Source: Pseudoflavitalea sp. G-6-1-2 (lineage in GTDB: Bacteria; Bacteroidota; Bacteroidia; Chitinophagales; Chitinophagaceae). From it: a DNA stretch of 64,000 nucleotides. This document shows, one piece after another, positions 15,415 to 32,879 of this stretch (positions are counted from its first letter, which is position 1; every line of letters begins with the position of its first letter). The notes under the pieces were generated by a model. It was given only the letters and a program-made list of their open reading frames with translations, had not been told where the DNA came from and made no database searches. The stretch lies in assembly GCF_012927185.1 (NCBI RefSeq), contig NZ_JABBGB010000002.1:806001-870000 (forward strand), in the 5' to 3' direction. The translations under genes were made by a program, and so were the position numbers.

Positions 15415-15489
15415 GGGAGTTTAGCTCAGCTGGTTCAGAGCATCTGCCTTACAAGCAGAGGGTCGGCGGTTCGAACCCGTCAACTCCCA
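15415..15489 (+). tRNA. tRNA-Val (anticodon TAC)
   Basis: The acceptor stem GGGAGTT (15415-15421) pairs with AACTCCC (15482-15488), followed by discriminator A; CCA is not encoded. The D-arm carries AGCTCAGCTGGT. The anticodon stem TCTGC/GCAGA encloses the loop CTTACAA with anticodon TAC at 15450-15452. The T-arm holds GGTTCGAA. All arms are intact. The 3' end is partly duplicated about 5.2 kb downstream, beyond the helicase gene, which suggests this tRNA was an integration target. Confidence 0.96.
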
Positions 15490-30454: not shown

Positions 30455-30470
30455 GGGATATCTCAAAAAA

Positions 30471-30598
30471 ATATCACGGGCAAGACTACCCGTGATATCA
30501 TATCCCCATTGCTGGGGCCTTTCATTCAAATTACCATTCCCGGCAGGAATACCGGCAATGTACTAATCGAGTCCGTTAACTCATTAACCTTATCCTAA
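30471..30598 (+). repeat. non-coding repeat A, copy 1
   Basis: The unit opens with a 10-bp hairpin (ATATCACGGG / CCCGTGATAT) around the loop CAAGACTA. A CCCC/GGGG hairpin, the block ACCGGCAATGTACTAATC, a small GAGT/ACTC hairpin and TTATCCTAA follow. Copy 2 at 31022 keeps the loops and the order but changes the stem bases. It lies in the gap before the first Xre gene. It could be a structured RNA or a protein-binding element. Confidence 0.55.
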
Positions 30599-30713
30599 AA
30601 TGAAAATAGTGTACGATGATAAAGAAAGATGTGTGCGAATATTTTTACAGTACATTTTAATAGATTGATTATAAAGGATTTTAAAGACGAAATTTATTAG
30701 GCAAATTCGTAGC

Positions 30714-30986
30714 ATGGGACGTAAGGCAAAGAAAAGAGTTATTGTACCTACCATATCCGAAAAGGAAATCGACTCCATCCATCTGGCAATTGGAAAAATC
30801 ATCAAAACAAAAAGGGAGGCGTTGGACTCCACCATCGACGATTTTGCCTATCAGGTAAATCTTTCCAGAAGCGGTTTGATAAGAATTGAAAAGGGGCAGG
30901 ATCTTACCATTCGCAGTCTGCTGAAAGTATTGCGTGGACTGAATATTACGCCAGATGAGCTCTTCCGCACAGTAACCGGAAAATAG
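30714..30986 (+). CDS. small Xre-family (HTH) regulator, copy 1
   Basis: This 90-residue protein is almost entirely a helix-turn-helix domain of the Xre/Cro type. The HTH core is DDFAYQVNLSRSGLIRIEKG at about residues 43-62, then the third helix region RSLLKVLRGLNI. It is a paralogue of the gene at 32616: both share the Asp-rich first helix, RSxLxRxxxG and LLKV blocks, and an identical GGCAAATTCGT just before the start (30700-30710 here). It may repress its own transcription or act on the flanking repeats; no toxin partner is adjacent. Confidence 0.82.
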   Translation: MGRKAKKRVIVPTISEKEIDSIHLAIGKIIKTKREALDSTIDDFAYQVNLSRSGLIRIEKGQDLTIRSLLKVLRGLNITPDELFRTVTGK

Positions 30987-31021
30987 GACTGCCTCTCTCC
31001 TTTTTATCGATTTTTTCAAAA

Positions 31022-31155
31022 AATCACCGGCAAGACTACCGGCGAATCTAATCACTCCCCATGCTCACATGGGGCCTTTCATTCATTGAACTATTCCCGA
31101 TAAGAATACCGGCAACGTACTAATCAAGTCCGTTAACTCATTAAACTTATCCTAA
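31022..31155 (+). repeat. non-coding repeat A, copy 2
   Basis: The same order of elements as copy 1: a CCGG/CCGG stem with the identical 8-base loop CAAGACTA (31031-31038), then CCCCATG/CATGGGG, CCTTTCATTCA, ATACCGGCAACGTACTAATC, a gap to CCGTTAACTCATTAAAC and TTATCCTAA. Loops and linkers are conserved while the first two stems differ in sequence. Confidence 0.55.
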
Positions 31156-31206
31156 TTGAAAAAAATTTAATGTTATAGCAACTCCATAAAGGAGCATATT
31201 TAATAA

Positions 31207-31272
31207 ATGGTTCCCAGCAGGATTACCAGGAACGAACTAAGTCAGAACCATTAACTCTTAAACCTTATCCTA
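31207..31272 (+). repeat. non-coding repeat A, partial copy 3
   Basis: Only the 3' half of the A unit is present: a TTCC-CAGGAA-like hairpin, then GTCAG, CCATTAACTCTTAAACC and TTATCCTA. It ends 37 bp before the first B element. Confidence 0.45.
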
Positions 31273-31309
31273 TAAAAAAATTTTGGAGAGTGAGCTGCAA
31301 TAAAAAAAT

Positions 31310-31497
31310 GGGGCGGCTCCATCTCTGTAGGAACGGCGCGGAAGCTGCCAGTACAGAGTTGATAGGAGCGCACCCCATCATTTTTGAATATGATGAAAGT
31401 GCGCGTTCTACTATCACTTGCCCTGTATAAGCTTCCGACTTTATCCAGCAAGAGTATAGCGAACACGACAATGAAGAACTAGTCTATTGAAGGTCGC
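31310..31497 (+). ncRNA. structured non-coding element B, copy 1
   Basis: This 188-bp element shares several long blocks with copy 2 at 32240 (GGCGCGGAAGCTGCC, GATAGGAGCGCACCCCAT, ACTATCACTTGCCC, AAGCTTCCGACTTT, AGCGAACACG, GGTCGCAAAA). It folds as a 5' hairpin (GGGG-CGG-CTCC), then a long rod: GGAAGCT pairs with AGCTTCC, GATAG with CTATC, GCGCAC with GTGCGC and ATCAT with ATGAT at the tip. A 3' hairpin follows (GCGA...CAAT/ATTG...TCGC). A further hairpin lies just downstream (31514-31538). I do not recognise an Rfam family. No protein-coding frame explains the conservation. Confidence 0.55.
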
Positions 31498-31513
31498 AAA
31501 AATACAGTAAAAA

Positions 31514-31538
31514 GAGCATCACTTATTGTAGTGTGCTC
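31514..31538. terminator. hairpin downstream of element B copy 1
   Basis: GAGCATCAC pairs with GTGTGCTC with one bulge. The T run is on the minus-strand side (CTCTTTTTAC), so it is a better terminator for leftward transcription, but it may also cap the B transcript. Confidence 0.4.
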
Positions 31539-31550
31539 TAATCAGTTATA

Positions 31551-31744
31551 ATAACCTTAACCTTGGCGAAAATAGTAAATATTATATTGAAAACACAATT
31601 CATTTATGTTTTTTCACATTAATACTTTGTTTTTATATAATTTGCTTGTGTTTTTGCACTGAAAATCAAATAATTAGCGGCCCTTATATTTGCTTCCGAC
31701 AAAATATGTCAGCGCCGAAACCGAAATACAATAACCTTAAGGTT
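31551..31744 (+). promoter_or_regulatory. candidate operator pair for the second Xre gene
   Basis: The decamer ATAACCTTAA occurs upstream of the gene (31551-31560) and again inside its first codons (31731-31740). The inner copy is part of a perfect 12-bp palindrome, AACCTTAAGGTT, at 31733-31744. Two sites flanking a promoter suit autoregulation by a dimeric HTH protein. This is inference from sequence only. Confidence 0.4.
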
Positions 31745-32023
31745 GTTATGGTTCAACATAACATGGACAATCGTACACTTGCGCAATTTTTAGACATGAG
31801 TGTGAATTCGATTTCCTTATGGAGAACCAACAAAGCTCAACCTGACCTGGAGACTATTCACAAAATAGCAGGATACTTAAAATGTGATCCGCGGGACATA
31901 ATTGCAACCAGAACATGGCCTGCCGGCCCATCTCAGGGCGAACTGGATATAGCCAAAAGAGATAAATTGAAACAAAAGCCCAAAAAGGCTGCGAAGAAAA
32001 CCTCAAAGAGGTCAAAAAGATAA
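31706..32023 (+). CDS. small Xre-family (HTH) regulator, copy 2, basic tail
   Basis: This 105-residue protein has a Cro/C1-type helix-turn-helix (NRTLAQFLDMSVNSISLWRTN, about residues 23-43; then TIHKIAGYLKCDPRDII) and a lysine-rich tail (KQKPKKAAKKTSKRSKR) that could add non-specific nucleic-acid binding. I start at 31706 (MSAPKPKYNN); a frame extending to 31646 lacks homology-like sequence. It is less related to the other two Xre proteins than they are to each other. It sits between the two B elements, with a candidate operator in front and inside. Confidence 0.82.
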   Translation: MSAPKPKYNNLKVVMVQHNMDNRTLAQFLDMSVNSISLWRTNKAQPDLETIHKIAGYLKCDPRDIIATRTWPAGPSQGELDIAKRDKLKQKPKKAAKKTSKRSKR

Positions 32024-32239
32024 GGCTCACTGTATCAGGTATACGCAGCAGACTATCTCTCAAGTTGCAACTGATCAACTAATATCATTTTCAAATTTTC
32101 ATCGATCTTACACCAGCATATTGTATTCCACAGGAATACCCATACACTTTACAATGCATTAGAGGCGCGATGTTTGCAATACCGCAGCAGAAGGTTGCGT
32201 TCAGATAAAGATTAAGTCGTTACAGAAGAGAAAGAAAAC

Positions 32240-32431
32240 GGGGTGTACCCCTACCACTACCTGGGAAGGCGCGGAAGCTGCCTGTCTGGAGGTAGATGAT
32301 AGGAGCGCACCCCATACATGCAATATGCTGGTGGTGCGCGTTACACTATCACTTGCCCCTGGTGAAGCTTCCGACTTTTCCCGGCAAGATCATAGCGAAC
32401 ACGTCAATACTATTCTACTATTGATGGTCGC
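32240..32431 (+). ncRNA. structured non-coding element B, copy 2
   Basis: This is the second copy of the 190-bp element. The 5' hairpin here is GGGG-TGTA-CCCC. In the rod, GGAAGCT/AGCTTCC, GATAG/CTATC and GCGCACC/GGTGCGC are kept, while the lower stem is extended by CCTGGGAAGG opposite CTTTTCCCGG. The 3' hairpin has GTCAATA/TATTGATG in place of CAAT/ATTG. The paired changes favour a conserved RNA structure over a protein or a simple DNA site. A 7-bp hairpin (AGAACAT/ATGTTCT, 32445-32470) and T-rich DNA follow. The element ends about 185 bp before the third Xre gene. Confidence 0.55.
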
Positions 32432-32615
32432 AAAATTTTATTAAGAACATCCGATTCCCGAAATGTTCTGTCTGTTTATTTCATGTTTTAGAAAAGTAAA
32501 AATAATAAAACAACGCAAGTATAGTGTCATATATGACTCTTTATTTTTGAATTCTCAATAATAACGCTTCAAACATAGGATTTTACAGGTTGGTTTATTT
32601 GGGCAAATTCGTGGT

Positions 32616-32879
32616 ATGGGTAAGGGAGATAAACAACCTACGGTAAAGCACTTAACAGACACTGACATCGATCAGATATTTTCCCGTATCGGAAAAAATC
32701 TGAAAGAACGCAGAAAGCAGGTAGGCATCTCACTCGACGATCTCGCCTACGAAAGCGGCGTATCGCGCAGCACCCTCACCCGTATGCTCGAAGGCGAAGA
32801 GGTAAATGTTCGTAACCTGCTTAAAGTAGTCTACAGCCTCGGCCTCAGTATCGATCAGGTGATCAGCTTCAAAAAATAA
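32616..32879 (+). CDS. small Xre-family (HTH) regulator, copy 3
   Basis: This 87-residue protein is a single Xre-type helix-turn-helix: IGKNLKERRKQVGISLDDLA, then YESGVSRSTLTRMLEGEE and LLKVVYSLGL. It is the closest relative in the window of the protein at 30714, and its start is preceded by the same GGCAAATTCGT block (32602-32612), so the two genes look duplicated together with their 5' leaders. No toxin gene or phage gene is adjacent. The 360-bp gap that follows holds only a terminator of the next gene on the other strand. Confidence 0.85.
   Translation: MGKGDKQPTVKHLTDTDIDQIFSRIGKNLKERRKQVGISLDDLAYESGVSRSTLTRMLEGEEVNVRNLLKVVYSLGLSIDQVISFKK

Follow-up and report, generated by a model that had tools for sequence, protein, structure and literature searches.

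A covarying RNA family of Bacteroidia, absent from Rfam 15, with two mutually exclusive pairings and a divergent XRE-type regulator gene

Several described systems invite comparison with a rod-shaped RNA element that lies beside a regulator gene. 6S RNA binds to RNA polymerase and acts as a template for product RNAs, in type III toxin–antitoxin systems the gene for an endoribonuclease toxin is preceded by RNA antitoxin repeats, and REP/BIME elements are short palindromes, dispersed in many copies, that go with a RAYT transposase. The locus considered here combines a long structured RNA with small genes of the XRE type. In human microbiomes, HTH_XRE is reported to be one of the domains met most often near candidate structured RNAs, and the most frequent one directly downstream of them (PMC8040213).

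An earlier note, made from sequence alone, had pointed out two look-alike elements in the window (the whole stretch of DNA analysed, 64,000 nt from Pseudoflavitalea sp. G-6-1-2). Both are indeed present as copies of one structured element, at 31308–31501 and 32238–32435 by the bounds of our covariance models (Table 1). The copies are 77 % identical across 172 nt (E 1e-28) and can be aligned along their whole length; the rest of the genome contains no other DNA-level match to them. Their folding energies are better than those of dinucleotide shuffles, with z-scores of −3.0 (1/200 shuffles as good) and −5.0 (0/200), and the paired stem changes that had been reported between the copies are real. 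The loops and linkers, which the note had singled out as constant, are conserved, but not they alone, as conservation is highest in stretches that fall partly within stems, segment a2 among them. The possibility of a coding remnant was rejected, the longest ORFs being no longer than those of shuffled sequences (24.6 versus 25.5 codons) and no conserved peptide being found; with the covariation described below, the reading as a structured RNA stands. On the minus strand, copy 1 has a GC-rich 3' stem followed by seven U residues (31308–31302), and copy 2 a GGGG/CCCC stem followed by GUUUUCUUUC, its U-rich 3' tail occupying 32238–32230. A 44 nt leader is repeated ahead of two of the XRE genes, at 30675–30718 and 32577–32620.

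Table 1. Positions in the window of the two RNA copies, their segments and the neighbouring genes and sites
Feature	Position	Strand	Remarks
Paralogous XRE gene	30714–30986	+	Without RNA here; counterparts in two related species have RNA
RNA copy 1	31302–31501	-	RNA 5' side at about 31501; models R1, R2 and R3 match 31308–31501 (R3, 140 bits)
Segment a1, copy 1	31308–31326	-	3' half of predicted terminator stem, pairs with a2; minus-strand fold, conserved in 32 relatives
Segment a2, copy 1	31358–31378	-	Alternative predicted partners b1 (rod) or a1 (terminator)
Segment b1, copy 1	31395–31417	-	Predicted partner of a2 in rod
Conserved 5' hairpin, copy 1	31458–31497	-	Ends GCGA...TCGC
Small HTH_26/XRE gene	31706–32023	+	Divergent partner of copy 1; PF13443, E 1e-11; ATG at 31706
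RNA copy 2	32230–32435	-	RNA 5' side at about 32435; models R1, R2 and R3 match 32238–32435 (R3, 185 bits)
Segment a1, copy 2	32238–32256	-	3' half of predicted terminator
Segment a2, copy 2	32296–32315	-	Fold and comparison
Segment b1, copy 2	32330–32353	-	Fold and comparison
Conserved 5' hairpin, copy 2	32392–32432	-	Fold and comparison
Palindrome AGTGTCATATATGACTCT, candidate operator	32523–32540	.	Between RNA copy 2 and XRE gene
TATTTTTG, TAnnTTTG -7 box of XRE gene	32542–32549	+	
XRE gene (HTH_3)	32616–32879	+	Divergent partner of copy 2; PF01381, E 1.6e-8

The family became visible only through covariance models: with copy 2 as query, DNA searches of family genomes, phages and plasmids gave almost nothing beyond the genus, the 195 family genomes yielding one relative beyond this genome and the genus search adding one, and an exact DNA pattern applied to about 85,000 genomes matched only in these two relatives, Pseudoflavitalea rhizosphaerae and a Chitinophagaceae MAG. 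Growing a covariance model from the two copies, as the earlier note had proposed, uncovered relatives across Bacteroidia. With model R2 members came to light in other genera, and model R3, built from eight distinct sequences, matched in at least 130 of 394 genomes and at least 54 of 101 genera of the family, and, across the class, in at least 32 of 295 genomes, several other families of Bacteroidia being represented; since 6–10 candidates were scored per genome, these counts are lower bounds. A draw from the phylum gave R3 matches again in Bacteroidia only. In 144 kb of sequence from mostly unrelated loci the background reached at most 11 bits, and accepted members scored at least 34 bits. R3 finds four copies in this genome, so that the two originally noticed are both real but too few, and up to six or more in other genomes. 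The further copies here, at G000:C4:19135-19311 (L131, 66 bits) and G000:C2:1685987-1686157 (L143, 40 bits), each have, 37 nt behind them, a small co-directional gene whose family is unassigned.

The note had recognised no family, and Rfam 15 bears it out. At gathering thresholds the sole match in the window is a tRNA at 15415, and when the region and the relatives were scanned permissively the RNA stayed unmatched, with only sub-threshold chance matches elsewhere. The resemblance to 6S RNA in outline, also suggested earlier, did not hold, as no Rfam 6S model reached any threshold; identity with 6S RNA was rejected on the same grounds for the window, the region and the relatives. We found no description of this RNA family in the literature searched. 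It is an RNA family absent from Rfam 15 and widespread in Bacteroidia.

Absence of covariation in a wider alignment had been named as grounds for abandoning the idea of a structured RNA. Covariation is present, however, 43 of the 59 pairs showing double-sided changes among 32 distinct sequences. In these, 93.1 % of cells are paired, compared with 32–43 % when partners are slid, a very large contrast although the model was built on the plus-strand pairing and the alignments fitted to it, which biases the pair percentages towards that structure. Double-changed cells number 376 as against at most 63 with slid partners, and the covariation score is 0.511, versus 0.144 for shuffled and at most 0.083 for slid versions. 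Four sequences were already enough to show changes on both sides at 14 of 59 pairs, with all slid versions failing. Within the 5' hairpin the two outermost pairs are invariant, the next two are kept in at least 30 of the 32 sequences, and six other pairs of the helix show double changes. As an independent test, the duplex energy of each sequence's own segments was compared with that of mismatched partners in 2000 permutations. Own partners were better for v2:v1, b1:a2 and a2:a1 (0/2000 permutations each), and no better than mismatched ones for the control pairs b2:b1, b1:a1, b2:a2, b2:a1 and tail:a1. The pairing b2:b1, which is strong in the window's genus, was consequently rejected as a third general alternative, overall not exceeding mismatched partners. 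The comparison shows segment a2 to have two conserved, mutually exclusive partners, b1 in the predicted rod and a1 in the predicted terminator, with covariation in both pairings, within an architecture that joins a long rod (v2:v1 and b1:a2) to a conserved 5' hairpin and a GC-rich 3' stem (a2:a1) with a U-tract.

The RNA is very probably transcribed from the minus strand, contrary to the earlier plus-strand reading, against which the U-tracts, promoter boxes and orientation all speak; a plus-strand RNA was rejected on these three counts. All sequences of the first set carry the a2:a1 stem and then a U-tract at the same end on the minus strand. In the main group, which comprises 81 distinct loci from 101 examined, seven or eight T in 8 bases occur at the 3' end of 60 members, compared with 14 of 81 background windows. 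The motif TAnnTTTG is known as a promoter motif of Bacteroidetes (PMC6414381), and its exact form lies 20–24 nt upstream of the conserved TTTTGCGA at the RNA start, on the minus strand, in 18 of 81 loci, about one being expected from neighbouring positions. The exact box is absent from its usual place in the window's genus, and an extra hairpin is found there instead, immediately before the 5' end of the RNA (32412–32460 and 31500–31545 in the window, with counterparts at L027 and L029); this hairpin may belong to a longer transcript or serve as a stop signal.

Fold energy is better on the minus strand in 9/9 first members and 63/81 of the main group, yet stability alone leaves the strand unsettled, because the fold z-scores favour the minus strand in 41/81 and thus do not differ between strands; a count of G-U against A-C cells (78 versus 59) was not decisive either. 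That folding is good on either strand, at similar z-scores, and that one related species has an empty site, would suit an element acting as DNA (a cruciform, or a REP/BIME-like or attC-like repeat whose hairpins need no transcription for their function). We consider this very improbable in view of the strand-specific U-tract and promoter box, the orientation fixed towards the HTH gene, the low copy number and the lack of an integrase or transposase beside the main group. A REP/BIME element in the strict sense was rejected, with four copies in this genome, fixed positions beside HTH genes and no transposase by the main group.

The link to XRE regulators, which had been noticed in the window, proved real and general. 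Upstream of the RNA, the closest ORF runs divergently at 74 of 81 loci, typically at a distance of 40–180 nt (median about 100 nt). After near-duplicates had been thinned, two evident spurious ORFs dropped and one misassigned gene substituted, 64 of these divergent neighbours remained, of which 53 matched HTH_3 and 51 HTH_26. The association is specific, as none of the downstream proteins shows an HTH domain. Conversely, an XRE protein search alone retrieved a G102 locus, which was later shown to bear the RNA (67 bits). Between the genes lie locus-specific palindromes, for which at most 1/20 shuffles was as good at 28 of 68 loci, about six being expected; for AGTGTCATATATGACTCT of copy 2 the figure was 3/20, the loci as a group being above chance. 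The palindrome centres are often 45–48 nt upstream of the RNA, about 22–25 nt before its -7 box, and we infer that a repressor bound there would overlie the -33 region of the RNA promoter.

The history of the locus bears on what kind of unit this is. In G002 and G196 the RNA stands before XRE1 and none before XRE2; in this genome it precedes both an extra HTH_26 gene and XRE2 but not XRE1. Comparison of G175 (L025) with G002 (L027) shows both XRE genes in each, with the RNA cleanly missing from G175 and the flanks closed up and otherwise aligned. Tandem duplication of an RNA–XRE unit followed by differential loss would explain the locus without transposition, and gain of the RNA at one site is possible. 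Of the earlier proposal of a small mobile unit, what survives is that a related species has the locus without the RNA; in the main group neither a transposase nor a target duplication was found, nor are copy numbers high. A second repeated element, also on the minus strand, was seen in the window at 30465–30605, 31010–31155 and 31205–31280, elsewhere in the genome at C1:2012736, C4:49440 and C1:1697036, and beside the RNA in G002, G196 and G175. Its layout is TTAGGATAAGG..TTAATG..TGATTAGTAC, then hairpins and usually a T-rich tail, and it is apparently a terminator in 3' UTRs, preceded by a motif that is itself conserved.

Weaker relatives (34–53 bits) from distant families have the same architecture and U-tract, but their 5' hairpin is another one (AGCGUU-GCU) and no HTH gene adjoins them; several precede genes for secreted proteins or modification. 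They are probably a second group of related RNAs. This group (L132–L148, L151, L090, L091 and L152) lies before genes for LamG-type or other secreted proteins and before other genes; by eye, a predicted type III modification gene follows the RNA at L139, and a transposase-like gene of IS1595 type is alongside at L132 and L148. One relative (54 bits) is carried by a mobilizable plasmid of Rhizosphaericola mali with no HTH gene adjoining. It might be imagined that the whole is a selfish or addiction-like module, in which the RNA would be active, perhaps harmful, and would have in the hypervariable XRE protein a repressor of its own, comparable to an immunity repressor. The contrast between a conserved RNA and highly diverse HTH partners (9 % mean column identity over 64 proteins), the locus-specific palindromes, the several copies per genome, the presence and absence between related species and the plasmid copy itself are all compatible with this. 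We nevertheless regard it as improbable, given that G175 keeps its XRE genes without the RNA, that the plasmid copy lacks the HTH gene, that there is no conserved peptide, and that no contig of a viral collection matched either of two exact patterns.

The genes on the other side of the RNA suggest its role. Of 79 main-group loci, 68 have a co-directional downstream gene, a count in which some ORFs are probably spurious, and this gene often begins 30–60 nt past the U-tract. Among 39 thinned downstream proteins, Sigma70_r2 (of the ECF type) was found in 14, CarboxypepD_reg (a TonB-type receptor domain) in four and HTH in none. A recurrent downstream protein of unassigned family (MNNAV.TP....FNE.QWLQ.LFLLADTQSWLQQLQ), seen at L059–L067 and L093–L103 in several genomes, starts about 35 nt after the RNA. 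At loci with a close co-directional gene an attenuator leader is the simplest reading of the sequence. The window copies appear to be free-standing, as they have no co-directional gene behind them and both point at the 3' end of another XRE gene; beyond copy 1 there are further terminator-like minus-strand hairpins with T-runs. In G002 and G195 there is likewise no downstream gene in the same orientation. Such loci, the invariable presence of a complete terminator, and the 5' hairpin and TTCGC motif, which are among the most conserved positions and lie outside the switch, would all be expected of a free-standing, trans-acting small RNA under XRE control, whose 3' stem would be a terminator and whose rod would bind a protein or mRNAs, the downstream genes not being its targets. 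We think this rather unlikely for the family, because the downstream genes are so consistently co-directional, often with scant room for a promoter of their own, and because a2 keeps two partners, which a plain terminator would not need.

Our current working hypothesis, held with moderate confidence and drawn from sequence comparison, is that of an XRE-repressed minus-strand RNA that acts as a terminator/antiterminator leader at most loci and is a free-standing or leftover module in the window. The minus strand would yield an RNA of about 190 nt, its transcription diverging from that of a small XRE-type HTH gene. Both genes would be repressed by the XRE dimer, bound to a palindrome of its own that lies between the start sites and often covers the -33 region of the RNA promoter; with XRE off, the RNA would be made. 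Whether or not the rod then holds a2 away from a1 would decide between read-through and termination. Where a co-directional gene is close, often one for an ECF sigma factor, the RNA would serve as an attenuator leader, and the window copies would be free-standing RNAs or leftover modules. It is tempting to speculate further on a class-wide RNA–protein system of Bacteroidia, in which the effector is the conserved bistable RNA and each copy is kept apart from the others by a rapidly diversifying XRE repressor that has an operator to itself; we offer this tentatively, as an idea that could well prove wrong. If it were true, one genome would run several orthogonal RNA switches before genes for ECF sigma factors, TonB-type receptors and secreted proteins. 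A covarying RNA family in at least a third of the sampled genomes of one bacterial family, with several copies in some, would in addition open sequence-level access to gene control, including that of ECF sigma factor loci, in a phylum whose repertoire of regulatory RNAs is little known, and the constant partnership with a variable regulator, together with two exclusive folds, makes for a specific and testable control circuit.

Among known systems, attenuators and riboswitch expression platforms resemble this RNA in having a 5' structured domain, exclusive pairings, an intrinsic terminator and, at most loci though at neither window copy, a co-directional gene 30–300 nt behind. Indeed, the GC-rich stem with its U-tract is that of an intrinsic terminator, and the conserved pairing b1:a2 excludes the terminator stem a2:a1 (both at 0/2000 permutations). 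It differs from them in being a long rod, not a compact aptamer, without an Rfam match, and in having a permanent, divergent and variable XRE gene together with unrelated downstream genes, or sometimes none. With 6S RNA it shares the long interrupted rod and a similar length, but it occurs in multiple copies per genome, beside a regulator gene, and ends in a competing terminator stem. As regards type III toxin–antitoxin systems, no toxin family was found among the scanned downstream proteins, and the window has no such neighbour. The candidates from human microbiomes are, in the examples given, short and described as 5' UTRs (PMC8040213), whereas the present RNA is about 190 nt long and its XRE gene divergent; the two sets may nevertheless overlap. 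The divergent repressor–operator modules of phages and plasmids (XRE/Cro-C1) are alike in their small XRE protein, here with domains of the HTH_3/HTH_26 type, and in the palindrome between divergent starts; in the family described here, however, the gene opposite the repressor is not one for a protein but a conserved structured RNA.
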